Virus record (IMG/VR): IMGVR_UViG_3300042486_000369
Span: 1 to 44,268 of that record
Direction: 5' to 3' (one strand)
Length of the DNA stretch: 44,268 nucleotides
Source: a virus
The notes below the pieces were generated by a model that was not told the DNA's origin, ran no database searches, and saw nothing but the letters and a program-made list of their open reading frames with translations. The position numbers were made by a program, and so were the translations under genes. The stretch's first letter is position 1. Each line of letters starts with the position of its first letter. This document shows positions 1 to 38,345 of the stretch, piece by piece.

Positions 1-2
1 CC

Positions 3-752
3 TCACTCGGCAGACCAGTCACGGCCTTCCCTGAGCAGGACCACCTCGCCCACCTGCAGACGCACATCAGCTACCTGACCAACCCGATGTTCGGATCGAA
101 CCCGATCTTCGCGCCGGTGTACATCCCGTCGATCCTCAACCACATCAAGGAGCACGTCGCCCTGTGGTACGCCTCGACCGTGTTCAACGTGTCGACCGAG
201 GCGCTGGGCGGCGAGGATCTGGGCGACATGATGCGCGACATGGATCCGAAGGACCGCGAGGGCCGACGCGCCCTCGACCGCATGCTCGCCGAGGCGTCGA
301 CCACGGCCCTGACCGAGGGCTCGCAGATCTTCCAGCAGATCCCGCAGATCATCCAGCAGGCGCAGCAGATCATGCAGCAGTTCCAGCCGCCGATGCAGCA
401 GGATCCGCGCCTCGCGATCGAGGGGCAGAAGCTGCAGCTCGAAGGCCAGAAGATGCAGGCCGACGCGCAGAAGACGCAGATGGACGCCCAGATGGCGGCG
501 CAGAAGATGCAGATGGACGCGCAGAAGATGCAGCAGGACGCCCAGATGGACGCCGCCGAGCTGCAGGCCAAGGTCGCCATCGAGCAGCAGCGCCAGCAGT
601 CCGAGGACGCGCGTGCCGCCGCAGATCTGCAGGCGCGCATGGCCATGAACCAAGAAGACAATCAAACGGCGATGGCTCTGGCGCAGGCCGAGATCGCGTC
701 CGGCGAACGGTTCTCGGTGTCTACCGGCACCGGAATTAACCCCAATCCGTAG
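3..752 (+). CDS. Portal protein, C-terminal part (cut by window edge)
   Basis: The open frame runs in from the left edge and ends at TAG 750-752, giving 249 codons of a longer protein. It starts with a segment containing PVTAFPEQDHLAHLQTHISY and continues through a helical region into a long Gln/Met/Ala-rich coiled coil (about residues 100-220 of the fragment). This resembles the C-terminal end of podovirus portal (head-tail connector) proteins, which form the dodecameric ring through which DNA enters and leaves. Its place just before scaffold-like and capsid genes fits that role. The internal ATG at 87 is not the real start, because the frame is open and similar in character upstream of it. 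The portal assignment is by family resemblance of the tail end only; the clip and stem domains lie outside the window. Confidence 0.7.
   Translation, partial: SLGRPVTAFPEQDHLAHLQTHISYLTNPMFGSNPIFAPVYIPSILNHIKEHVALWYASTVFNVSTEALGGEDLGDMMRDMDPKDREGRRALDRMLAEASTTALTEGSQIFQQIPQIIQQAQQIMQQFQPPMQQDPRLAIEGQKLQLEGQKMQADAQKTQMDAQMAAQKMQMDAQKMQQDAQMDAAELQAKVAIEQQRQQSEDARAAADLQARMAMNQEDNQTAMALAQAEIASGERFSVSTGTGINPNP
418..560 (+). repeat. Imperfect tandem repeat encoding Gln/Met heptads
   Basis: Units built on cag-aag-atg-cag and gac-gcg-cag recur about every 21-36 bases and encode QKMQ-DAQ-type heptads in the portal C-terminus. The pattern predicts a long coiled coil. The repetitive DNA would also let the coil length vary by slippage. 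Confidence 0.6.
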
Positions 753-758
753 AAAGGA

Positions 759-905
759 ATGGACATGAAGAAGAACGACGCAGCACTCAGTAAGGGCAAG
801 GCCGCTGGCGGCATGACGCCCAAGAACACCAACATGCACAAGCTGATGAAACTAGGGCAACACCCCAAGATGGAAGTCAGCGGAGGCAAGAAGACACCCG
901 CGTGA
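759..905 (+). CDS. Small basic phage protein, 48 aa
   Basis: This short gene lies between the portal and the next ORF. It begins MDMKKNDAALSKGKAAGGM and ends with a Lys/Gly-rich tail (GGKKTPA), with stop TGA 903-905. A ribosome-binding site (AGAAAGGA, 751-758) sits just upstream of ATG 759, and the stop overlaps the GTG start of the following gene as GTGA. It has no recognisable domain. The high content of Lys, Gly and Met matches other small basic proteins in this genome (13365-14266), so a role in the virion or in binding DNA is possible but unproven. Confidence 0.6.
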   Translation: MDMKKNDAALSKGKAAGGMTPKNTNMHKLMKLGQHPKMEVSGGKKTPA

Positions 906-1096
906 AGATAGAGGTCTTACTCCAACGCCTTGAACAGGAGCAGGCTCGGCTTGCCTCCGAGGCGTTGGCGCATCCAGCGGGAAAGGACGGCTTCGACTAC
1001 GGTCGGGCCGTCGGGATGTACGCAGGCCTCGAACATGCGAAGCGCACTCTGATCGACATGATCGCCGAGAAGGAGCGCAGAGACTTCGTATTGTGA
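902..1096 (+). CDS. Conserved-type small phage protein, 64 aa, unknown function
   Basis: A helical 64-residue protein starting at GTG 902, which overlaps the previous stop (GTGA). The sequence is mostly charged helix: LLQRLEQEQARLASEAL, then GKDGFDYGRAVGMYAGLEHA, then a Lys/Glu-rich helix ending RRDFVL. No catalytic motif or membrane segment is visible. The tight coupling suggests co-translation with its neighbours in the portal-to-capsid interval. I do not recognise a characterised family. Confidence 0.6.
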   Translation: MKIEVLLQRLEQEQARLASEALAHPAGKDGFDYGRAVGMYAGLEHAKRTLIDMIAEKERRDFVL

Positions 1097-1114
1097 GTTA
1101 AGAATGGAGCGCAA

Positions 1115-1543
1115 ATGATTGAATTAGCTAACAAAGTTGAGTTTGGCTATGACAGCGAGGACGAGGCCTTTCCGCCTTGCGACCCCGGCGTCATGCCCTT
1201 CGGCAGCCGCGTACTGATACAGGTACGCACGCCGAAACAGAAGACCAAGGGCGGGATCATCCTGACCTCGGAGACGCGCGAGACGGACGCGTGGAACACT
1301 CAGGTCGCCAAGGTGATCGCAGTGGGTGAGCTGGCCTTCAAGAACCGCACGACCATGGAACACTGGCCCGAAGGGAGCTGGTGCAAGCCGGGCGACTTCG
1401 TGCGCGTGCCCAAATATGGCGGCGACCGATGGACCGTCAAAACCGCCGACGGCAAAGATGAAGCGCTGTTGGTAATTTTCAACGACCTCGATCTGATAGG
1501 CAAGGTGACCGGCGACCCGCTGGCCATCAAGGCATTCATCTGA
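1115..1543 (+). CDS. GroES-like co-chaperonin
   Basis: A 142-residue protein with the core signature of the GroES (Cpn10) fold. After an acidic N-terminal extension of about 26 residues it reads PFGSRVLIQV, then the mobile-loop-like KTKGGIILTSETRET, then AKVIAVG, and finally GDFVRVPKYGGDRW. It is longer than bacterial GroES (about 97 aa) because of the N-terminal extension and an insertion around residues 76-90. GroES caps the GroEL folding chamber, and phage versions such as T4 gp31 replace the host co-chaperonin to fold the capsid protein. The gene sits 2 kb before the major capsid gene, which suggests the same job here. Only the co-chaperonin is seen, so it would have to work with host GroEL. 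Confidence 0.8.
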   Translation: MIELANKVEFGYDSEDEAFPPCDPGVMPFGSRVLIQVRTPKQKTKGGIILTSETRETDAWNTQVAKVIAVGELAFKNRTTMEHWPEGSWCKPGDFVRVPKYGGDRWTVKTADGKDEALLVIFNDLDLIGKVTGDPLAIKAFI

Positions 1544-1571
1544 TCGATAAGGCTACAGTAGGGAGCCGGTT

Positions 1572-2498
1572 ATGACCGACAATACACTTACCGAGAATGA
1601 CGAGAACGACGAGCTGATCCCCGTGGAGACGCCACCCGAAGAGGCGGCCGAGGACACCACGCCGGACGACGCGGATGATGAGGACGAGGAGGACGAGCGC
1701 CTCGGCACCAGCGAGGACGACAGCGACGAGGAGATATCCTCCTCCAATCGCCGCCGCCGACAGCGCCGCCGCGACATGCAACGCAAGGCCCGCGACGAGG
1801 CCGAGCGCAAGATCCGCCTGCTCGAACAGCAGAACGCGGAGATGCTTCGCCGCCTCTCGGCAGTCGAGGGCCACGCCGTCAACAGCAACGCCCAGACGAT
1901 TGAGGAGCGCATCGCCAAGAACCAGCGCGAAATCGCACAGGCTGAACACTTCATCGCCAAGGCGACTGAGGCAGGCAATGGCGAGGACGTGGTGGCCGCG
2001 ATGCGGATCCGCGATCAGGCCATGTCCGAGGCGCAGCAGTTGCTGGCCGCCAAGGAGCGCCTTGCCGAGGCACGCAAGCAAGCAGCCACGCCGCAGGTCG
2101 ACCCGAACGTGGTCAACTACGCCAAGGAGTGGATGTCCGCCAACCCGTGGTACGACCCGCAGGCTCGTGACCGCGACAGCGCTGTGACCAAGGCCATCGA
2201 CGCCGAGTTGGCCCGCGAGGGCTACAACCCAGCGTCGCGCGACTACTGGGAAGAGCTGACCGCCCGCGTGGCCGAGGCGATCGGCGACGACGCACCGGCG
2301 CAGGCACCGGCCGAGAAGAAACGGCGCGGGCCGCCGACCGGCAATACCCGCCAACATGCGCCCACAAGCACCAAGAAAGAAATCTACGTGACACCCGACC
2401 GAAAACAGGCTATGATTGAGGCTGGAGTATGGGATGACCCTGTGCTCCGCCAGCGCTATTTGAAGGCGTATCAGGCTTATGATAATTCGGCTCGCTGA
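1572..2498 (+). CDS. Scaffold-like protein
   Basis: A 308-residue protein whose first 60 residues are almost entirely Asp/Glu. A strongly basic patch (NRRRRQRRRDMQ, about 57-68) follows, then a coiled coil (about 75-190), and a C-terminal region with a conserved-looking segment (WMSANPWYDPQARDRD) and a short helix-rich tail. An acidic, coiled-coil, soluble protein directly before the capsid genes is the usual layout of a podovirus scaffolding protein, which organises capsid subunits during procapsid assembly and then leaves. The start ATG 1572 has a good ribosome-binding site (AGGGAG). The assignment rests on position and composition, not on sequence identity. Confidence 0.6.
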   Translation: MTDNTLTENDENDELIPVETPPEEAAEDTTPDDADDEDEEDERLGTSEDDSDEEISSSNRRRRQRRRDMQRKARDEAERKIRLLEQQNAEMLRRLSAVEGHAVNSNAQTIEERIAKNQREIAQAEHFIAKATEAGNGEDVVAAMRIRDQAMSEAQQLLAAKERLAEARKQAATPQVDPNVVNYAKEWMSANPWYDPQARDRDSAVTKAIDAELAREGYNPASRDYWEELTARVAEAIGDDAPAQAPAEKKRRGPPTGNTRQHAPTSTKKEIYVTPDRKQAMIEAGVWDDPVLRQRYLKAYQAYDNSAR

Positions 2499-2514
2499 GA
2501 AGGAGTGAGACAAC

Positions 2515-3072
2515 ATGAGCAATGGTAACGAAGACAGCCGCCTGAAAAAAGCAGCGGACTTTGACGTAGTCGGTCGCCGCGACACGCGCAGACAGGAGGA
2601 CCGTTTGGTCACCGATGTCCGCGAAGTCAGCGAGGATGATCGCTTGGAGATGTTCCGAAACCAACTTTTTAACGATGCACTCCCTGACCTGCCGGACATT
2701 CCGGGCTATCATGTGTGCTGGCTCACCACCACCAATTCCCGCGATCCTATCCACCGTCGCACGCAGCTCGGCTACGAGCCTATCCGCGCCGATGAGATAC
2801 CGGGAATGGAGTATTCCTCCCTGAAGACCGGCGAATGGGCCGGTATGGTCGGGGTAAACGAAATGGTCGCGTTTAAGCTGCCCTTGAGCCTCTATGAGCG
2901 CTTCATGCAGGAAGCTCACCACAACGCCCCGTTGCGCGAGGAACAGAAGTTGGCCGATGTTGCGGATATGCTCCGTGAACAGGCCCACAGAGCCGGTAGC
3001 GTATTGATCGAAGGTGACGGAAATCAGGACATGCACTCGTCCCACACGCCGCAAAGGGGCATCTTCTCCTGA
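2515..3072 (+). CDS. Capsid-region protein of unknown function, 185 aa
   Basis: A 185-residue soluble protein between the scaffold-like and decoration-like genes, with AAGGAG before ATG 2515. The middle region (IPGYHVCWLTTTNSRDPIHR, followed by LGYEPIRADEIPG and KTGEWAGMVGVNEMVAFKLP) reads as a compact alpha/beta domain, flanked by charged helices. Proteins with this kind of core occur next to the capsid gene in several podoviruses, usually annotated only as hypothetical or minor capsid proteins. There are no transmembrane segments and no nuclease or protease motif. Confidence 0.6.
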   Translation: MSNGNEDSRLKKAADFDVVGRRDTRRQEDRLVTDVREVSEDDRLEMFRNQLFNDALPDLPDIPGYHVCWLTTTNSRDPIHRRTQLGYEPIRADEIPGMEYSSLKTGEWAGMVGVNEMVAFKLPLSLYERFMQEAHHNAPLREEQKLADVADMLREQAHRAGSVLIEGDGNQDMHSSHTPQRGIFS

Positions 3073-3102
3073 CGCGGTAACCGCAACTCAATTTTGAGGT
3101 AA

Positions 3103-3669
3103 ATGGACATGAGCACTGTATCTCAGCCGTTTGGCCTTCGCCCTTCGTATTCGCCCAGCGGGACTGTCCGTCCCATGGCGTACACGATTGCGTCTGCCTA
3201 CGGCGTCAATATCCTGCAGAACCAGCCGGTTCGCATCGCCACTGACGGCAACATCGAAGCTGCAGCCATCGGCACACGCTTCATCGGCACCTTCCAAGGC
3301 GTCGAGTTCACCGACAGCGACGGTCGCCGCCGCGTCAGCAACAAGTGGACGGCATCGACCGTCGCCACCGAAATCGTGGCCTATGTCACCCTCGACCCGA
3401 CCATCGTTTACGAAATTCAGGCCAACGGCCCGATCGCAGTAACCGACATCGGCAAGCAGGCTGACTACACCGCCATCACCGCAGGCTCGACCGTCACCGG
3501 TCTGTCGGCTTTGATGCTGGACACCGCGACGCTGACCGACACCGGCAACGCCGCACTGCGTATCATCGACCTGTCACCCGCACCGGACAATGCGTTCGGT
3601 GATAACTTCACGATCGTTCAAGTTCAGATTTCTGAGCACCAGAACGTCGCTGACCGCGCCGCTTACTAA
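3103..3669 (+). CDS. Probable head decoration or minor capsid protein
   Basis: A 188-residue beta-rich protein that begins with FGLRPSYSPSG and has short Thr/Ala/Val strands throughout, with no charged coiled coil. Its position just before the major capsid gene is that of a head decoration or minor head protein in related genomes. There are two in-frame ATG codons (3103 and 3109). GAGGT at 3095-3099 lies close to the first and at a normal distance from the second, so 3109 is also possible. Function is inferred from context and fold type. Confidence 0.6.
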   Translation: MDMSTVSQPFGLRPSYSPSGTVRPMAYTIASAYGVNILQNQPVRIATDGNIEAAAIGTRFIGTFQGVEFTDSDGRRRVSNKWTASTVATEIVAYVTLDPTIVYEIQANGPIAVTDIGKQADYTAITAGSTVTGLSALMLDTATLTDTGNAALRIIDLSPAPDNAFGDNFTIVQVQISEHQNVADRAAY

Positions 3670-3683
3670 GGAGGGCTTGAACA

Positions 3684-4598
3684 ATGGCTAACCCAATGCG
3701 GAGTACTGACTTTCGCTCCATCGTCGAGCCGATCCTGAACGAAGAGTTCAACGGCATTTATGACCAGCGTTCTGACGAATGGTCGCAGGTCTTCAAAGAG
3801 TTCAAGGGCATCCCTCGGAACTACCACGAAGAGCCTGTCCTGTTCGGCATGGGTGCTGCACCCGAGCTGCCTGACGGCACTGCGGTCACCTACCAGTCGG
3901 GCGGCGTGCTGTTCATTCAGCGCTACGTCTACAAGGTCTACGGCCTCGCCTTCGCTCTCACGAAGGTTCTGGTCGAAGACGGTGACCACATCCGTATCGG
4001 TCAGACCTACGCTCGCCACCTCGCCCAGTCGCTGGTCGAGACCAAGGAAACCCTTGGCGCGAACGTACTGAACCGCGCATTCAACGCTGCATTCGCAGGC
4101 GGTGACGGCGTGGCTCTGGTCGCAAACAACCACCCGATCGCAACCGGCACCTTCTCCAACCAGCTTTCGACTGCGGCCAACCTGTCGCAGACGTCGCTGG
4201 AGCAGATGCTCATCCAGATCCGCAACGCTGTTGACAACAACGGCAAGCGCATCCGCCTGACGCCGAAGAAGATCGTCACTGGTCCGTCGAACGTGTTCCA
4301 AGCTGAAGTTTTGCTCAAGTCTGCACTGCGTGCAGGCACGGCAAACAACGACATCAACCCTGTCGTAAGTTTGGGAATGCTCGATCAGGGTCAGGCCAAC
4401 CTGTCGCGTATCACCTCGACCACTGCATGGTGGGTCCAGACCGATGCGCCGGAAGGCCTCAAGCTCGCGATGCGTCGCGGCCTTGAGAAGTCGATGGAAG
4501 GTGACTTCGAGACCGACAGCATGCGCTACAAGGCGACCGAACGCTATGCGTTCGGGTGGACGGACCCCCGTAGCGTTTACGGTACAGCAGGCCTGTGA
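3684..4598 (+). CDS. Major capsid protein, Mu gpT-like family
   Basis: A 304-residue protein with features of the Mu major head subunit (gpT) family. It has an N-terminal helix ending FNGIYDQRSDEW, the strand-helix segment VYGLAFALTKVLVEDGD, a long helix around AQSLVETKETLGANVLNRAF, the loop with VANNHPIATGTFSN, and the C-terminal strand region ending YAFGWTDPRSVYG. It has a very strong ribosome-binding site (AAGGAGGG) before ATG 3684 and is followed by an intrinsic terminator, as expected for the most highly made virion protein. The fold should be HK97-like. I saw no separate protease gene or protease domain in the window, so any proteolytic maturation cannot be judged here. Confidence 0.85.
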   Translation: MANPMRSTDFRSIVEPILNEEFNGIYDQRSDEWSQVFKEFKGIPRNYHEEPVLFGMGAAPELPDGTAVTYQSGGVLFIQRYVYKVYGLAFALTKVLVEDGDHIRIGQTYARHLAQSLVETKETLGANVLNRAFNAAFAGGDGVALVANNHPIATGTFSNQLSTAANLSQTSLEQMLIQIRNAVDNNGKRIRLTPKKIVTGPSNVFQAEVLLKSALRAGTANNDINPVVSLGMLDQGQANLSRITSTTAWWVQTDAPEGLKLAMRRGLEKSMEGDFETDSMRYKATERYAFGWTDPRSVYGTAGL

Positions 4599-4630
4599 TA
4601 AATCGTTGAAATAACGCGATTTTATCTCGC

Positions 4631-4659
4631 TTGAAAAGAGCCCCTTCCGGTATTAGGAT
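4631..4659 (+). promoter_or_regulatory. Possible sigma70-type promoter inside the terminator hairpin
   Basis: TTGAAA (4631-4636) and TAGGAT (4654-4659) are separated by 17 bases. The -35 matches five of six consensus bases and the -10 four of six. The predicted transcript start near 4666 would lie after the 5' arm of the hairpin at 4641-4680, so a transcript from here would carry the HNH ribosome-binding site unpaired. The -10 match is mediocre, so this remains a hypothesis. Confidence 0.35.
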
Positions 4660-4686
4660 ACACGCCTAATCTGGAAGGGGTTTTTC
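4641..4686 (+). terminator. Intrinsic terminator after the capsid gene that also masks the next RBS
   Basis: CCCCTTCC (4641-4648) pairs with GGAAGGGG (4673-4680), and an inner stem ATTAGG/CCTAAT (4652-4657 with 4665-4670) extends the hairpin. A run of five T residues follows (4681-4685). This is a textbook intrinsic terminator for the capsid transcript. The 3' arm GGAAGGGG is also the only ribosome-binding site available to the endonuclease gene that starts at ATG 4688, so read-through transcripts would carry that site paired. Confidence 0.85.
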
Positions 4687-4687
4687 T

Positions 4688-5311
4688 ATGCGTAAATTAC
4701 ACGACGTCTGCACGATGCCTGATTGCGGCCGACCGCATAAGGCGAGGGGTTATTGCCAGACGCATTACACCCAATTCAAACGCGGCATCTCGCCAGTCGG
4801 GCCGATCAAGACGCGGGAGCGGGACAAGCCGCCAGAATGCACCGAGGATGGCTGCGCCGAGCCTGTGAAGTCGAAGGGGCTGTGCAAGATGCACTACCAG
4901 CGGCTGCTACGCCACGGGCACACACGATACCGCAATCGTAAAAAGCCTGCACGCATTTGTGAGATCGAGGCTTGCGACAACCACCTCTACGCTAGAGGTC
5001 TCTGCCACGCGCATTACATAAAGCAGCGCAAGTGGGAGGCCTTCGGCGTCGACGCGAACAGGTATCAAGAGATGCTGCGCGAGCAGGATGGCGTCTGCGC
5101 GATATGCTCGCAGCCTGAGCGCGCGCCAGACGGATCGTCAGGCAAGATAAAGGACATGGCCATAGATCACGACCACGCTACCGGCGCGGTGCGCGGCCTG
5201 CTCTGTTCGACGTGTAACCGCGCGCTCGGCCTGTTCCGCGATGACAAAGCCTTGCTCAACGCGGCGGTGGCATATCTAGACAAACATCTAGAAACGCCGC
5301 CCTCCGTGTGA
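4688..5311 (+). CDS. Homing endonuclease, endonuclease VII-type HNH
   Basis: A 207-residue protein with two parts. The N-terminal half holds three copies of a C-x4-C-x9-C-x2-H zinc-finger-like unit (first at C8, C13, C23, H26; second beginning at C51; third near residue 90). The C-terminal part has the recombination endonuclease VII core: CAIC, then IDHDHATGAVRGLLC, then CNRALGLF, in which the DHDH and the Asn of CNRALG are the expected catalytic residues and the two Cys pairs bind zinc. Family members cut DNA and often act as free-standing homing endonucleases. The gene sits between the capsid terminator and a virion gene, a typical homing position. Expression is probably limited by the hairpin that contains its ribosome-binding site. 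Confidence 0.85.
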   Translation: MRKLHDVCTMPDCGRPHKARGYCQTHYTQFKRGISPVGPIKTRERDKPPECTEDGCAEPVKSKGLCKMHYQRLLRHGHTRYRNRKKPARICEIEACDNHLYARGLCHAHYIKQRKWEAFGVDANRYQEMLREQDGVCAICSQPERAPDGSSGKIKDMAIDHDHATGAVRGLLCSTCNRALGLFRDDKALLNAAVAYLDKHLETPPSV

Positions 5312-5317
5312 TATACT
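5309..5317 (+). promoter_or_regulatory. Possible extended -10 promoter for the gene at 5355
   Basis: TGATATACT contains the extended -10 TG followed by one base and TATACT (5312-5317). No clear -35 is present, which is common for extended -10 promoters. It overlaps the stop codon of the endonuclease gene and lies 38 bases before ATG 5355, so it could restart late transcription beyond the terminator at 4641-4686. Confidence 0.45.
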
Positions 5318-5354
5318 GCCCGAGCTATAGCCAAACTTTGCAAAGGATTTACTT

Positions 5355-5798
5355 ATGGCTCAGACTACCTTCAGTGGTCCCCTAGCAACGGGCGACCGTC
5401 CCGCTGGGGCACCGGGCGGCCCGAACCTCGGTCTTGTCACCTTGGCGCAGACCGCCGTCATCAACTTCAACGCGACACTGGTGCAGAACGCCACGTTCAA
5501 CGTGCCCACCAACAGCCAGATCGTCGATTTCTACGTCGACGTCCTGACTGCATTTGACAGCGCCACCTCGGCGACGCTGTCGGCTGGTACGGCCTCGGGC
5601 GGCACGCAGTATCTGAGCGCAATCAACGTCAAGACGGCGGCTCGCCGCCCGAACGCGTTCAGCGCTGCCCAGCTTGCTGCAATGGACGATGTTGGCTCCA
5701 ACCGTCAGGTTGTCGCCACTGTCACCTCGGTCGGCCAGCCGACTGCAGGTCAGGTGCGCGTCACCCTGCTGTATGTCCAGACAACGGCTGATGACTAA
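5355..5798 (+). CDS. Probable virion protein, 147 aa
   Basis: A 147-residue beta-rich protein starting MAQTTFSGPLATGDRPAG, with a ribosome-binding site AAAGGA before ATG 5355. After a Gly/Pro-rich arm comes a compact domain of alternating hydrophobic strands (NATFNVPTNSQIVDFYVDV, then SATLSAGTASGGTQYLSAI, then QVRVTLLYVQT), which looks like a small jelly-roll or decoration fold. It is the first gene after the capsid and homing endonuclease, so it is likely a head decoration or head fibre protein. I do not recognise a named family, and no enzymatic motif is present. Confidence 0.55.
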   Translation: MAQTTFSGPLATGDRPAGAPGGPNLGLVTLAQTAVINFNATLVQNATFNVPTNSQIVDFYVDVLTAFDSATSATLSAGTASGGTQYLSAINVKTAARRPNAFSAAQLAAMDDVGSNRQVVATVTSVGQPTAGQVRVTLLYVQTTADD

Positions 5799-5823
5799 TC
5801 GCTAACGCGATGGTATAAGGCGC

Positions 5824-5856
5824 GTGGGTGGCGGATCGGAAGTCCCCGTCACCCAC
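5824..5856 (+). other. Intergenic hairpin without a T-run
   Basis: GTGGGTGGCGG (5824-5834) pairs with CCGTCACCCAC (5846-5856), with one G-T pair and an 11-base loop. No T-run follows, so it is not a standard terminator. It may protect the 3' end of the upstream message or be a processing site. The start of the next gene follows 23 bases later. Confidence 0.5.
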
Positions 5857-5878
5857 CGCTTCCTAAAGGAGTTTTGGC

Positions 5879-6214
5879 ATGCGCCCGATTGTTGTTACCC
5901 TCAGCGACGCCAGCGGCGGCGCAAAAAACTCGGATCCGATCCCCCTCGATATTCATGGCCGCCCCGACATCTCCCTGCAGGTGCAGGTGACGGGTACGGC
6001 TAACTGGACGATCCAGCAGACGCTGGACAATCCCTTCACCACGCCCGCAGGCTCGCTTACGTGGGTCAACCACCCAGACACGAACTTGGTCGCCCAGACC
6101 GTGACGCGGCAGGGCAACTATGCCTACGTGCCCTTCGCCGTGCGCCTCCAGCTTACGAGCGGATCCGGCTCGGCAAGGCTCACGATCATCCAGTCCGGTG
6201 ATAACAGGGCCTAA
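5879..6214 (+). CDS. Virion-region protein of unknown function, 111 aa
   Basis: A small all-beta protein starting MRPIVVTLSDASGGAKNSDP, with a strong ribosome-binding site (AAAGGAG, 5865-5871). The middle has QVQVTGTANWTIQQTLDNPF and a C-terminal strand pair ending LTIIQSGDNRA. Short proteins of this type occur immediately before fibre genes in several podovirus genomes, where they are thought to be fibre-base or decoration proteins. No transmembrane segment or enzyme motif is seen. The function is not known to me. Confidence 0.55.
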   Translation: MRPIVVTLSDASGGAKNSDPIPLDIHGRPDISLQVQVTGTANWTIQQTLDNPFTTPAGSLTWVNHPDTNLVAQTVTRQGNYAYVPFAVRLQLTSGSGSARLTIIQSGDNRA

Positions 6215-6216
6215 GC

Positions 6217-8109
6217 GTGTCGTCGGGGCTGTACAGCGGCGTCTCTGGTCTGGCCCTTGGCTCGGGCCTGTATCGCAACGTCTCAGGCCTGTGGGGTGGC
6301 TCCAGCGGCCTTATCAATGGCTTTGGCGGAAGCGGTCCGTTCCCCGGCGCTTCGCTGTACCTCGACTTCCTCACGCCCCCGCTTGACAGTCGCATCACCT
6401 TCTCTCGCGGCACGAACGCCACGCTGGTCGACAGCACGGGGAAGATCGCGTACGCACCTGCAAACTTGCTGTTGCAGTCGCAGACAATAGCTACTGCTCC
6501 TTGGAGTGGAGATACATCTGGCGGGAGTATCCCAACGGCCACTAACGATGCGGGTATAGCGCCTGACGGAACAAACACTGCGACCAGATTGCAGATTAAT
6601 AGGGGCGCTGGAATATACAGCCGCTGGCAACAGACAGGAGCAGCGGGGCCTACTGGTTTTTATCTTTCGTCTGTTTGGATGCGAACCACTAGCGGCACCG
6701 GCACGGCAAATGTCGGTCTGCGCAATGACGCTACTGGCGTGAACTGCGTCGTCACCGGAACTTGGCAGCGGTTTTCGGTGATAAATGCCACGGCAATCAA
6801 CTTCTCAAATATCCAAATACTGTCATTCACTAGCATCCCCGGCACTGACGTATCTGCGGACATTCTAGTCTGGGGCGCTCAATCCGAACCCGTCACCTAC
6901 CAGACCACGCCCGGTCCCTATGTCGCCACCACAGCCTCGCCCTATTACGGCCCCCGCTTTGACTATGATCCTGTCACGCTGGCACCTCGCGGCCTGCTGA
7001 TCGAGGAAGCGCGGACGAATTTGATACTGCGGTCTGAAGAATTTAATAGCGCTTCTTGGCTTAGTTTTGCCGCACTAGTTTCTGCCGATGTGACCGCAGC
7101 GCCCAGCGGAGTAACGGTAGCTGACAAGATCACTGAAGCGGCTGGGGCTGCAAACCAGAGCGTGTATAACGGAAACACCGCTCCGTTCTCCACGGTTACG
7201 GCCTCAACATATTTCAAAAGTAGCGAACGTACTTTTGCTCACTTATCTGTATCAGGGGGTGGATCGGCGCAGTGGTTCGCGGCTACGTTCAATCTTACGA
7301 CTGGCGTCGTCACGCAACAGCTTGCAGGCGCTTCCGGCACCATATCTGGGGCGACTATAACCAACGCTGGTAATGGTTGGTATCGCTGCACAGTAACCGG
7401 CATAACTGGCGCTTCCACTGCCAGCACCTTTGTTTATTGCGGCCCGTCAACAACGGCTACGCCTACTCCGGGCAGCTTTGGTGTCCTAGCCTATTCAGGT
7501 ACCGCTGGTTCCGGCATTTTTGCTTGGGGCGCACAACTCGAAGCAGGCGCATTTGCCACCAGCTACATCCCCACGGTTGCCTCTACGGTTACACGTAACG
7601 CTGACGTCGCTCAGATGACGGGGACAAACTTCTCTAGCTGGTTCAATTCGGCGCGAGGTACGTTTGTTGCATCGGTTGGCAGTGGCGCAAATGGGCGTTG
7701 CGTCCTCGTGGCTTCAGACAATTCCGTCACAAACCAGCTCATCATGGTTTCGACTGCCGACAACATCTTTGCTGTATATACTGGCGGCTCTTATCAAGCG
7801 ATGCTTGGGGTCACTCCGGCAGCCCCCTTTGCAAGCACTGGCGCGTATGCGACAAACGATTTTGCAGCCTGCGCAAACGGCGGGACGGTGGCAACGGACA
7901 CGAGCGGGTCGCTTGCGGCGTCTTACACGCAGATGAGCATTGGCTCCAACTACAACGGCAGTGGGGTCTTCCTCAACGGCCTCATTCGCGCCATTGCCTA
8001 CTACAACACGCGCCTACCGAACACGCAACTCCAGACGCTTACCGCGCCATCACTGGCCTCGCCGCTGGCTCTGGATTTCCTATCCACCTCGTACACGGTG
8101 GGGTACTGA
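6217..8109 (+). CDS. Fibre/adhesin protein 1 with carbohydrate-binding-like modules
   Basis: A 630-residue protein starting at GTG 6217 with AGGG upstream. After a Gly/Ser-rich N-terminus (about 1-50) come two related beta-sandwich modules (about 75-240 and 270-465). Each has an N-terminal NLxLxSx start, an APDG- or APSG-type loop and a closing segment such as AWGAQLEAGAFATSYIP. A linker RFDYDPVTLAPRG joins the two. The C-terminal 160 residues look like a concanavalin/LamG-type lectin fold ending in an IRAIAYYNTRLPN segment. The same modules recur in the next two genes, so the three are tandem paralogues. They probably bind glycans on the host surface. Codon use in the modules is more AT-rich than in the linkers, a sign of module exchange. 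Confidence 0.7.
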   Translation: MSSGLYSGVSGLALGSGLYRNVSGLWGGSSGLINGFGGSGPFPGASLYLDFLTPPLDSRITFSRGTNATLVDSTGKIAYAPANLLLQSQTIATAPWSGDTSGGSIPTATNDAGIAPDGTNTATRLQINRGAGIYSRWQQTGAAGPTGFYLSSVWMRTTSGTGTANVGLRNDATGVNCVVTGTWQRFSVINATAINFSNIQILSFTSIPGTDVSADILVWGAQSEPVTYQTTPGPYVATTASPYYGPRFDYDPVTLAPRGLLIEEARTNLILRSEEFNSASWLSFAALVSADVTAAPSGVTVADKITEAAGAANQSVYNGNTAPFSTVTASTYFKSSERTFAHLSVSGGGSAQWFAATFNLTTGVVTQQLAGASGTISGATITNAGNGWYRCTVTGITGASTASTFVYCGPSTTATPTPGSFGVLAYSGTAGSGIFAWGAQLEAGAFATSYIPTVASTVTRNADVAQMTGTNFSSWFNSARGTFVASVGSGANGRCVLVASDNSVTNQLIMVSTADNIFAVYTGGSYQAMLGVTPAAPFASTGAYATNDFAACANGGTVATDTSGSLAASYTQMSIGSNYNGSGVFLNGLIRAIAYYNTRLPNTQLQTLTAPSLASPLALDFLSTSYTVGY

Positions 8110-8110
8110 T

Positions 8111-10795
8111 ATGGCTACTACGACCTTTAACGACCTCATCACCTTCAGCCGTGGCAGCAACGCGACCGTCACCGGCCCGAATGGCCTGATCCAGTGGGCA
8201 CCGAGCAATATCGCCACTAACTCGCAAGATTTTGAGGCGGGGACGTGGACAAAAAATAACTCGGCAGTCTACCCCAACCAGAATTTTGCTGGCGGTCCTT
8301 TGGGGCCGGAACTAGTCGTAAACGGCAACTTTGCGACGGATACCAACTGGACTAAAGGTGTCGGTTGGACGATAAGCGGCGGGGCTGCAGTTGCGACGGC
8401 AGTCGCATCCTTTGAACAGATACTCCAAAATATCGGGGTGGTCGCCGGGAGAACCTATCAAGTTAGCGTCACCGCAACGGTTACAAGCGGGTCTTTTTCC
8501 GTTGGCCTTGGGAACAGCGGACAAAATATCTGGGTGACCCAAACAACGTCCGGCACTTACGCCGCGATTGTCACGGTGGTCGCTGGTACAGGCAGTGGGA
8601 ATGTTTACGCGCGTGGAAACCCGACATTCACGGGCACCATCGACGACATCTCTGTACGGGAGGTAACCCCTGCCGCCGCCGTCGCCCCGGATGGTACTCA
8701 GACCGCTGACACTTGGATACCGACAAGTAGCGGGACTACGGCTGGTTCCCGACTGTTGGGTTCATTTACGGTCACTTCTGGCTCTATACAAACCGCTTCT
8801 ATCTACGTAAAATCAGCAGGGAAGCGCTGGCTCTTTTTGACTACGCCATCGGCGGCCAGTGCAAATGACAACTGCTGGTTCGATCTACAGAACGGCGTGG
8901 TCGGCACAATAGGTTCGTCTGCGCTGTCCGCCACCATGACTGCTGTCGGCAACGGCTGGTATCGGGTTACTACAACATCTGTTGCCGTATCCGCTACTAA
9001 CTATATATTTGTTTCTACGACCACGGGCGATAACACGACTGCTGTTACTGCTGATGGTACAGGCATCCTCATCTGGGGCGCTCAACTCGAACTCGGCTCC
9101 ACCGCGACCACCTACAACAACACCAGCGTCCGCAACCTGCTAGGGTTCAGCGAGGCGTTTGATAATGCTGTGTGGTCAAAGGGTGCAGCTACTCTAGTTA
9201 CTGGCGCACAAGCCAATCCCGTGAACGGTCTGTTCAATGCCCAGAAGCTGATGGAGGATACGACCAACGCGCAGCATCTGGTACTCCAAAACTATGCGGC
9301 TGCGGCCAGTATTTACACCTATTCGATATATGTCAAAGCTGCGGAACGTAGCATTTTTGGGTTCAACCGCACTGATATTGGTGGGTTTAGCGCTTCCTAT
9401 AACCTTGCTACCGGTACTGTGCGTTCGATCAGCGGGTTCACAAACGCCCAAATAGTTGCCGTAGGGGACGGCTGGTATCGCGTTTCGTGCATGCTAACGC
9501 TGGCATCCGCAACGACCATAGGCTTTGGGGTTCAGCCATACAACGCGTTAGGCGCTACCGTGTACACAGGCGACGGCAACAGCGGGATCTACATCTACGG
9601 CGCGATGCTATCCAACAGCGCCAGCCTCGATCCTTATGTGCCAACCCCCGGTGCGGCACCGAGCAGCACTGCCTATTACGGCCCACGCTTCGATTACGAC
9701 CCCGTGACGCTCGCAGCCCGTGGGTTTTTGGTGGAAGAGGCTAGGACTAATCTGCTGACTTACTCGGCGGATTTCACGAACGCGGCGTGGACAGCGTCAC
9801 AGGCAACCGTGACAGGAAACAGCACAATCGCGCCTGATGGGACGCTTAGTGCAGACACCCTTACGTTAAACGCAACTACATACCCTAGCGTTTTTGCGAC
9901 TGTGACAACAACCACCTCGACCACTTACACCGCGACTGTTTACGCAAAAGCGGGAACAGCAAGTGTTCTTGCTTTGGAGTTCAGAGGTGTAAGCAGCATC
10001 CCTGATGTTGTTTTTAACTTGGCGAATGGGACTGTAACATCTGGTTCTGGCCAGATAACGCCTGCTGGTAATGGTTGGTATCGTTGCTCCGTCACAAAAG
10101 CTGCGGTCGACACCTCAGAACTTATCATAATAAGTTCAGGACTTACCCCCGCTATAGGAACAACGCTTTTTCTCTGGGGCGCACAACTCGAAGCTGGCAC
10201 CTTCGCCACATCCTATATCCCCACCATCGCCAGCACGGTCACACGCTCGGCAGATGTCGCTACGATCACGGGGAGCTTGTTCTCGCAGTGGTATAGGCAG
10301 GCGGAAGGTACGTTCGTATTCGATTTTGGCCCGTTTAACTTTGCAGGCACAATGGCGGGAAGCGCTCCATATGATACAGCGGTAGGGGCAGTCACAAACG
10401 GCGTTCGTGCAGGACGCCAATTCTCCGCGCAAAATCAATTTGGTTGGAACGTGCAGAATAAAACAGGTACTCCCATAGGTACTTCAGCGATTTCCGGTAG
10501 TGGAGGGTTTGCGCCGCTTAACGGTCCTGCGCCCTTGCAAAAACTCGCGGTGTTCCAAACAACAACGAGCATGGGAGGAGTTGTAAACGGTGGTATCGTG
10601 TCGTCCACAGCATTGACTGTCACCCCGACAGGCGCGTCCGACTTGTTCTATATAAACCCGTTCATGAACGGTTGGTTCCGCTCCATCCGCTACGTCCCCG
10701 TCCGTGCTGCGGACTTCCAGCTACAGGCGCTGACAGAGCTGCCCCTCGTCCCGACGCTCGACGTGGACTTCATCAACAACTTGTACGAGGCTTGA
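8111..10795 (+). CDS. Fibre/adhesin protein 2, largest of three tandem paralogues
   Basis: Real start ATG 8111, one base after the previous stop; the frame is open further upstream to 7940 but there overlaps fibre 1. The protein has 894 residues. It starts with TTFNDLITFSRGSNATVTG, then carries three copies of the beta-sandwich module seen in fibre 1, each ending in a WGAQLE-type or equivalent segment, and a C-terminal LamG-like domain ending RSIRYVPVRAADFQLQALTE. The first module is interrupted by a different module (about residues 62-187, containing ELVVNGNFATDTNWT and IDDISVREV). It probably acts as a receptor-binding fibre or head spike. Its neighbours and shared linkers support duplication and later shuffling. 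Confidence 0.7.
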   Translation: MATTTFNDLITFSRGSNATVTGPNGLIQWAPSNIATNSQDFEAGTWTKNNSAVYPNQNFAGGPLGPELVVNGNFATDTNWTKGVGWTISGGAAVATAVASFEQILQNIGVVAGRTYQVSVTATVTSGSFSVGLGNSGQNIWVTQTTSGTYAAIVTVVAGTGSGNVYARGNPTFTGTIDDISVREVTPAAAVAPDGTQTADTWIPTSSGTTAGSRLLGSFTVTSGSIQTASIYVKSAGKRWLFLTTPSAASANDNCWFDLQNGVVGTIGSSALSATMTAVGNGWYRVTTTSVAVSATNYIFVSTTTGDNTTAVTADGTGILIWGAQLELGSTATTYNNTSVRNLLGFSEAFDNAVWSKGAATLVTGAQANPVNGLFNAQKLMEDTTNAQHLVLQNYAAAASIYTYSIYVKAAERSIFGFNRTDIGGFSASYNLATGTVRSISGFTNAQIVAVGDGWYRVSCMLTLASATTIGFGVQPYNALGATVYTGDGNSGIYIYGAMLSNSASLDPYVPTPGAAPSSTAYYGPRFDYDPVTLAARGFLVEEARTNLLTYSADFTNAAWTASQATVTGNSTIAPDGTLSADTLTLNATTYPSVFATVTTTTSTTYTATVYAKAGTASVLALEFRGVSSIPDVVFNLANGTVTSGSGQITPAGNGWYRCSVTKAAVDTSELIIISSGLTPAIGTTLFLWGAQLEAGTFATSYIPTIASTVTRSADVATITGSLFSQWYRQAEGTFVFDFGPFNFAGTMAGSAPYDTAVGAVTNGVRAGRQFSAQNQFGWNVQNKTGTPIGTSAISGSGGFAPLNGPAPLQKLAVFQTTTSMGGVVNGGIVSSTALTVTPTGASDLFYINPFMNGWFRSIRYVPVRAADFQLQALTELPLVPTLDVDFINNLYEA

Positions 10796-37742: not shown

Positions 37743-38315
37743 TCATGCGTTTTCGCGACTTTGATAAAACCCATGCGCTCGTTCACCCTCTTTGCGAGCC
37801 TGTACGGCAGCCTCGAAACCCTCCGCAGTGAATGGGAACGTCCCGAGGCGGATATCTTTCCCAGCTACACGTATGCGAGCGGCCCAATATGTATATTTGC
37901 CGCTATTCAGAGATAGCTTCGAGACGCCGCAAATTCCGGTTTTACTAGAACGTGGCGCAGACTGGTTTCTTGCGTTTTCGGTATTTGTAACTTCACGTAA
38001 ATTCGACAAGCGATTGTCGTCGCGGATGCGGTTTATGTGATCTATCTGATGTGTAGGCCAAGCGCCGTGAACCCAAGCCCAAACAACTCTATGCGCCGCA
38101 TGCCAGCGCCCAAATAGCTGTCCGGTCATATACCCCGCTGGGTTTTGACAAGAAAAAGCAAGCGCCCCGGCGTAGCGGGCGTTCCACGCGCGGTAGCTGC
38201 GGTGGGTGGCAAACAGCTCTCTGGAGCGTTCTCGCCAATGTAGCGAACCGGTGTCTGGATTGTAATCCAAAAGTTGACGCAGTTGCGCAGCGTCTATTAC
38301 AGGCTTCTTAGGCAT
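37743..38315 (-). CDS. Homing endonuclease, HNH with AP2-like DNA-binding domain
   Basis: A 190-residue protein from ATG 38315 (GTG 38330 is an alternative; GTGGAG lies nine bases before the ATG). The N-terminal part has YNPDTGSLHWRER, the middle the HNH core HRVVWAWVHGAWPTHQIDHI, then NRLSNLREVTNTENARN, and the C-terminal part an AP2-like DNA-binding domain with TGICGVSKLS, WAARIRV and IRLGTFPFTAEGFEA. The catalytic His of QIDHI and the Asn residues of NLREVTNTENARN are present. It lies between the helicase and the helicase remnant, and is more AT-rich than the surrounding genes. Family members move by cutting intron-less or insertion-less copies. Confidence 0.9.
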   Translation of the reverse strand: MPKKPVIDAAQLRQLLDYNPDTGSLHWRERSRELFATHRSYRAWNARYAGALAFSCQNPAGYMTGQLFGRWHAAHRVVWAWVHGAWPTHQIDHINRIRDDNRLSNLREVTNTENARNQSAPRSSKTGICGVSKLSLNSGKYTYWAARIRVAGKDIRLGTFPFTAEGFEAAVQARKEGERAHGFYQSRENA

Positions 38316-38345
38316 TTTTGCGAACTCCACTTCGCTTTAGTGTCT

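Follow-up and report, generated by a model that had tools for sequence, protein, structure and literature searches.

One of the questions raised by the viral DNA considered here, a window of 44,268 bases (the whole stretch analysed, IMG/VR record IMGVR_UViG_3300042486_000369), concerns a nuclease gene whose start lies 89 bases downstream of the stop codon of the major capsid gene. How is such a gene to be expressed when the message that runs into it is that of a capsid protein, and what is the role of the hairpin, the Shine-Dalgarno (SD) sequence and the promoter-like site that share the interval between the two genes (Table 1)? A first-pass annotation had proposed that the hairpin that ends the capsid transcript also hides the ribosome-binding site (RBS) of the nuclease gene, which would be exposed in RNA from an internal promoter. 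From comparison with relatives we consider it probable that the interval is a three-in-one expression switch, which serves the EndoVII nuclease gene behind the capsid gene, a free-standing gene of the homing type.

Table 1. Features of the capsid-nuclease interval and its flanks in the window
Feature	Position	Strand	Evidence
Major capsid protein gene	3684..4598	+	Pfam PF25209 6.4e-12, PHROG head matches
Small AT-rich hairpin, directly past the capsid stop	4600..4622	+	MFE fold
-35-like hexamer TTGAAA	4631..4636	+	consensus scan, weight scan, TTG fixed relative to apical loop
Hairpin 5' arm, within the promoter spacer, anti-SD	4636..4657	+	folding, arm pairing in relatives
-10-like hexamer TAGGAT	4654..4659	+	scans; retained also where the base it pairs with has changed
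Apical loop of hairpin	4658-4664	+	fold
Hairpin 3' arm; predicted short-RNA start ~4666, 7 nt past the -10	4665..4685	+	fold; start from hexamer only
Shine-Dalgarno GGAAGGGG, within the 3' arm	4673..4680	+	best anti-SD duplex -7.4 kcal/mol, gap 6
U-tract (T5) of terminator, also in the SD-to-start spacer	4681..4685	+	sequence
EndoVII-type (DHHRN) nuclease gene, 207 aa, Cys/His-rich N-terminal repeats	4688..5311	+	PF02945 1.7e-22, phrog_2914 2.7e-34
Promoter-like TAGAAA-N17-TATACT, TG before it, upstream of the gene at 5355	5289..5317	+	consensus scan only

The two genes and their relatives

At the DNA level, Caulobacter phage RW and its kin have a capsid gene 78% identical to the one in the window. 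The gene behind it had been called an HNH endonuclease; an endonuclease it remains, but of the EndoVII (DHHRN) type and not a classical HNH enzyme, as both the match to PF02945 and the invariant DHHRN residues indicate. D160, H161, H163, R169 and N177 are invariant in all 16 aligned nuclease proteins, as are the cysteines of the CxxC pairs (C137, C140, C173 and C176; 16/16), and a profile search against the PDB with the nuclease matched Hpy99I and T4 EndoVII (1e7d). The window protein itself carries the D, H, H, R and N together with the CxxC pairs of the EndoVII motif, and it is after these five residues that the DHHRN family is named (PMC6083498). A second nuclease gene of the window, at 37743-38330 on the minus strand, is of the HNH_3 type (PF13392, 6.6e-16). 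Scans of 20 (larger) proteins of the window revealed neither an RNA polymerase nor a sigma factor, in a record that may be incomplete. In relatives, whose loci are denoted by L-numbers, the annotation places a GroES/chaperonin-10 gene a few genes before that of the capsid in L001 (Caulobacter phage RW, 754-1185) and in L002 (346-801).

Viral contigs were scanned with the capsid (80 loci kept), with the nuclease (21 loci) and with a nuclease alignment (78 loci). A capsid gene followed by an EndoVII start within 200 bases is found in 92 rows (the window and loci from L003 to L165), some of which are the same contig twice; these reduce to 41 distinct upstream sequences and, at 80% identity, to 19 clusters. 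The EndoVII proteins behind the 41 upstream regions share 45-100% protein identity. Among the 80 capsid loci the nuclease gene is present in 12, a stub of it in one (L046) and a different EndoVII-like gene in two (L003, L075). No close relative was found among the 19 EndoVII loci of cellular genomes, nor among the 1823 EndoVII records of cultured phages, all of which are below 60% identity. Behind its capsid stop at 2914, L046 has no more of the nuclease gene than a start codon joined to a C-terminal stub; this locus retains the hairpin, the U-tract and the -10, and its -35 reads CTGCAA instead of TTGCAA, which as a single case is only suggestive. Small hairpins like that at 4600-4622 stand at the same place in many relatives, for instance AAAAAGCAACGCTTTTT in L019, and relatives without the nuclease (L020, L024, L030, L037) also have a small AT-rich hairpin after the capsid stop.

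Hairpin, predicted masking of the ribosome-binding site, and promoter-like site

The minimum free energy of 4600-4700 is -37.5 kcal/mol (z -6.45), a value reached by none of 200 shuffles. The 3' arm of the hairpin holds the only good SD of the nuclease gene, with the coordinates first given for it (4673-4680, ATG at 4688). By folding prediction the RBS is contained in a stable stem on RNA initiated upstream: the probability that the SD is unpaired is 0.00 in the long RNA and 0.40 in the short RNA, and its opening is predicted to cost 21.9 kcal/mol in the former against 3.6 when the RNA begins 7 nt downstream of the -10. For the 35 other genes of the window (36 tested) the cost in the long RNA averages 4.2 and does not exceed 8.4 kcal/mol. 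The GC-rich stem is directly followed by the U-tract, as in an intrinsic terminator. Searches of Rfam gave no match at the gathering threshold in the window and none up to an E-value of 5 in 4500-5500.

TTGAAA-N17-TAGGAT had been described as spanning the 5' arm; the site is found there, but only the last base of the -35 touches the stem, so that its TTG lies outside the hairpin. In a consensus scan the site matches at 9 of 12 positions, and with 8 such sites in positions 1-10000, where 3.7 are expected from shuffles, a single site is weak evidence; TAGGAT and TAGGCT are, moreover, poor -10 sequences. When the 80 nt upstream of the window nuclease are shuffled with their dinucleotides kept, 0 of 200 shuffles reach the score of the site. 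Over the relatives, only 18 of the 41 single sites beat 95% of their own shuffles, and the ordinary sites of L019, L015 and L114 are matched by 171, 148 and 117 of 200 shuffles, respectively.

As to position, a plain sigma70 weight scan of the last 80 nt puts the end of the best site 25-34 nt ahead of the start codon in 40 of the 41 upstream regions, with L015 as the exception. A structure-only anchor, in which the position of the TTG is measured from the apical loop of the folded hairpin, finds a TTG that starts 28-34 nt before the loop in 38/41 upstream regions and 16/19 cluster representatives; it is at -30 or -31 in 13 of these 19. Outside this 7-nt range of offsets, the 19 representatives together contain only eight TTGs. 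By these two measures the hexamers are placed such that an RNA from the predicted start point would lack the 5' arm in 40/41 and 38/41 cases, respectively. The anchor behind the SD-accessibility and information figures favoured TTG and a spacing of 17, whereas the weight scan and the structure-only anchor are without this bias. With the former, information peaks at TTG and TAGGnTACA and is low in the spacer (15/19 representatives, with spacing 17). L159 is a poor fit for the -35.

Further evidence comes from unrelated phage DNA, where the context of TTGACA-N17-TAGGATACA was compared with that of an N12-spaced control (at least 120 matches for either pattern; 80 listed loci each, 72 and 69 of them distinct). 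Among the matches listed, 53/72 lie outside open reading frames at N17 against 25/69 at N12 (p 9.5e-6), a difference in context that supports TAGGATACA as a -10-like element. The presence of an SD with an open reading frame downstream did not differ among the matches listed (19/72 at N17, 13/69 at N12; p 0.32).

Conservation, joint change and sporadic presence of the element

Relatives with the nuclease gene keep both the stem and the promoter-like site, including those without a U-tract, which answers a check that the first-pass annotation had suggested. Their sequences share the hairpin, the placement of the SD within it, the hexamers with their spacing, and arms that change jointly. The SD is predicted to be sequestered (probability of being unpaired below 0.2 in the long RNA) in 40/41 distinct upstream regions, and its mean accessibility over the 41 is 0.06 in the long against 0.42 in the short RNA, where it is only partly open (above 0.6 in 7/41). 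The median predicted cost of opening the SD, over the 19 cluster representatives, is 15.6 kcal/mol in the long and 2.7 kcal/mol in the short RNA. The long-minus-short difference exceeds that of all 352 control genes in 14/19 and is at or above that of at least 349 of them in 16/19; in 16/19, likewise, 0 of 200 shuffles fold as well. L158, L162 and L163 fit poorly, with weaker folds and differences of 3.1-5.8 kcal/mol, which are reached by 9-45 of the 352 controls.

The pairing of the arms has been maintained while their sequences changed. When arms are exchanged between representatives, the native 5' arm is the best for its own 3' arm in 19/19, and the mean arm-pairing energy is -27.1 kcal/mol for native pairs against -12.7 for 342 chimeras. 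Positions 7-20 of the spacer stay paired in a fixed register, with three to six pair types each, and in the -10 the T and the A hardly vary, although they are unpaired in 5 and 4 of 15, respectively. In a 17-row alignment, in which some rows are out of register and from whose counts a realigned 11-row subset was left out, both sides have changed in 6/13 pairs (20 cells, against 5.3 when shuffled), with no both-side changes in the -10 helix. RNAalifold returned no consensus pairs from a 37-row alignment (the 41 upstream regions minus L158, L159, L162 and L163), because stem lengths differ between lineages. A variable spacer that stays paired, together with hexamers that are kept, points to two constraints on the same stretch, one on RNA pairing and the other on DNA sequence. 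The composite CTTGnAAA-N16-TAGGnTACA occurs in 55 stretches of viral contigs, of which 22 precede EndoVII genes, each with a fold of -26.8 or below, and 33 lie elsewhere, with folds of -3.5 to -19.3.

The U-tract is optional in these sequences, and the presence of the cassette sporadic. If five or more T among the 9 nt that precede the start codon are taken as a U-tract, it is found in 30/41 upstream regions and missing from 11/41. Most of these 11 keep the hairpin and the hexamers, for instance TTGACA-N17-TAGGAT in L145 and L154; in eight (L103, L145, L150, L151, L154, L155, L157, L159) the long-minus-short difference is 8.0-17.9 kcal/mol, and in the remaining three (L158, L162, L163) it is small. 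RBS masking with the promoter thus looks like the core of the element, and the role as terminator like an addition to it. That the masking had merged with a terminator, as originally suggested, fits with these counts and with the other hairpins or terminators that gene-less relatives carry behind the capsid gene.

On a capsid tree of 98 rows the presence of the nuclease gene changes 17 times, at least 12 of which are forced by supported branches; a caveat is possible recombination of the capsid genes themselves. The alignment of L028 with L025 runs to the capsid stop and resumes 46 bases further on in L028 and 697 bases further on in L025, the cassette occupying the place of L028's hairpin, and the same is seen with L039 and L058; when L053, L029, L020 and L043 were compared with carriers, the boundaries were not clean on both sides. 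Such alignments suggest that the cassette can replace an ordinary capsid hairpin, and its presence or absence among close relatives at one site is what characterises a free-standing homing endonuclease. The arrangement also recurs in L174 (TTGACA-N17-TATAAT) and L167 (TTGACA-N17-TATACT), far relatives whose capsids are only about 35% identical; in both the spacer pairs with the SD, and the predicted opening cost falls from 11.8 to 1.9 kcal/mol and from 14.2 to 1.8 kcal/mol, respectively. It is not clearly shown by the EndoVII-like loci L003, L075, L166, L168-L171, L173, L179 and L182, most of them near capsid genes, and in L170 and L173 hairpins hold the SD with no matching promoter seen. A scan with the L174 protein gave eight loci, three of them near-copies and five, of which four were inspected, without the arrangement or in other contexts.

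How, then, might the three-in-one switch operate? Capsid transcripts would mostly end at the hairpin and U-tract. Read-through RNA would fold the hairpin and bury the SD of the nuclease in the 3' arm, such that no nuclease would be made from it; that this RNA goes untranslated is suggested by the modelled folds. Across the 5' arm would lie a sigma70-type promoter whose 17-nt spacer is the anti-SD, so that an RNA starting about 7 nt past the -10 would be without the 5' arm and translatable. If the promoter fires, as its hexamers suggest, from the predicted start near 4666, this modest promoter would be the sole source of nuclease, whose production would be shielded from the abundant capsid message, and the benefit may be to limit a potentially harmful nuclease.

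Were the element only the capsid terminator, its G-rich 3' arm and U-tract would merely happen to serve as RBS and spacer, and the promoter match would be due to chance. A hairpin with T5 is indeed a standard terminator, gene-less capsid relatives have hairpins of their own at this place, and sites resembling a promoter turn up often (8 in 10 kb), many single sites being unremarkable. Yet most of the 11/41 relatives without a U-tract still have hairpin and hexamers, the TTG is fixed relative to the loop though it stands outside the stem, the -10 is retained when its pairing partner changes, and near-perfect promoters are found at the same place in the far relatives L174 and L167, which makes this explanation unlikely. 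The hairpins that gene-less relatives have right behind the capsid gene, several of which (L004-L013) lack a U-tract, would also suit a hairpin that acts mainly on the 3' end of the capsid mRNA, protecting it as a stabiliser or processing it as an RNase III site, with RBS masking as a side effect; as this leaves the conserved hexamers, their spacing and the SD in the stem unexplained, we regard it as very improbable.

The inverted repeat could alternatively be a DNA operator or cruciform to which the EndoVII-type protein itself binds, or which it cuts, repressing its own promoter in the manner of I-TevI. The repeat overlaps the promoter, TAGGnTACA is unusually conserved, and EndoVII enzymes recognise branched DNA. 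Repression of its own expression at its operator is described for I-TevI (PMC2988022). The arm sequences are not conserved, however, unlike those of a sequence-specific operator, and a DNA operator does not call for an SD in the 3' arm, where it consistently lies. An operator is accordingly quite unlikely to be what the repeat represents, and is in any case compatible with the expression switch, the two not being exclusive.

A wider reading of the switch, put forward tentatively as possible rather than probable, is that of a portable insulating cassette which moved repeatedly behind the capsid genes of diverse phages and whose hairpin, in one large group, gained a U-tract and took over as capsid terminator. 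With the 17-nt spacer of the promoter written as the gene's own anti-SD, read-through RNA would be self-silenced in any neighbourhood, and the nuclease would come from a host-type promoter and stay silent on the late capsid message, a regulation inverted relative to T4.

Known systems and a neighbouring leader RNA

The precedent invoked at the outset, sequestration of the RBS with an internal promoter as in T4 I-TevI, is documented: masking on upstream RNA and unmasking from an internal promoter are described for I-TevI, I-TevII, I-TevIII, segB and Aeh1 mobE (PMC2988022). These are GIY-YIG or HNH enzymes, whereas the nuclease here is of the EndoVII type, and their masked upstream RNA is early or middle, whereas here it is the capsid message, presumably late. 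In the relevant passages of PMC2988022 their hairpin is not described as the terminator of the upstream gene, and the terminators of mobE and segF lie within the coding regions. With a presumably late message masked and a host sigma70-type promoter, timing at the present locus may be inverted with respect to T4. For the T4 lysozyme gene e the long RNA is masked, with lysozyme synthesis 100-fold lower on it, and late promoters just upstream give RNA without the 5' strand of the stem (PMC3014915); e does not encode an endonuclease, and no terminator function is described in the passages concerned. T4 late promoters have the form TATAAATA (PMC3014915), instead of which the weight scan and information content here indicate a sigma70-like TTG-N17-TAnnnT pair. 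F-CphI of cyanophage S-PM2 is, as here, free-standing, with an EndoVII catalytic motif and DHHRN conserved, but adjoins the intron-bearing psbA gene, and the passages on it mention no promoter or hairpin element (PMC6083498).

RBS masking by RNA structure is described for T4 e, soc, 49 and I-TevI (PMC3014915), and gene 49 encodes EndoVII, the same enzyme family as here. The closest T4 parallel is gene 49 as much as I-TevI. According to Barth et al. in 1988, the long early RNA of gene 49 is reportedly masked and a late promoter gives a short RNA. Gene 49 has a T4-type late promoter and a different gene neighbourhood, and we know of no capsid terminator merged into it. The present element differs in its sigma70-like promoter, in a spacer that is the anti-SD and in its location directly behind the capsid gene. 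In the open-licence literature no description was found of a capsid terminator that doubles as an RBS-masking hairpin with an internal promoter. The logic of RBS masking is thus already known from T4 (I-TevI, e, soc, gene 49), and what is new is its fusion with a capsid terminator, the sigma70-type promoter with an anti-SD spacer, and the wide conservation. If the switch is real, the quieting of endonuclease genes on read-through messages would be no peculiarity of T4, but would recur in many uncultured phages, there combined with a promoter of host type and fused to the terminator of a gene whose expression is presumably high. That the promoter spacer is the anti-SD makes a rule simple enough to look for elsewhere, and one from which an expression part that insulates itself could be built; in nature there are forms that have or lack the U-tract, and that have or lack the gene, so the three roles can be tested separately.

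A separate observation concerns a conserved structured leader RNA that precedes the gene following the capsid (or nuclease) gene in relatives (L040:4958-5039 and 29 other distinct copies); it was not seen in the window. With 18 of the 30 copies aligned, 8/9 pairs of its stem show both-side changes, and the whole structure has 49 both-side cells against 17 when shuffled. Rfam gave no match at the gathering threshold in 10 loci, with chance-level matches only in L040. An invariant CATGC/GCATG could form a pseudoknot beside the SD, and the leader is possibly an undescribed riboswitch or translational operator. In L019, L021, L058 and L087 the nuclease frame enters this leader RNA, so that its C-terminal ~20 residues (ending LVHKD) are encoded by the leader of the next gene.
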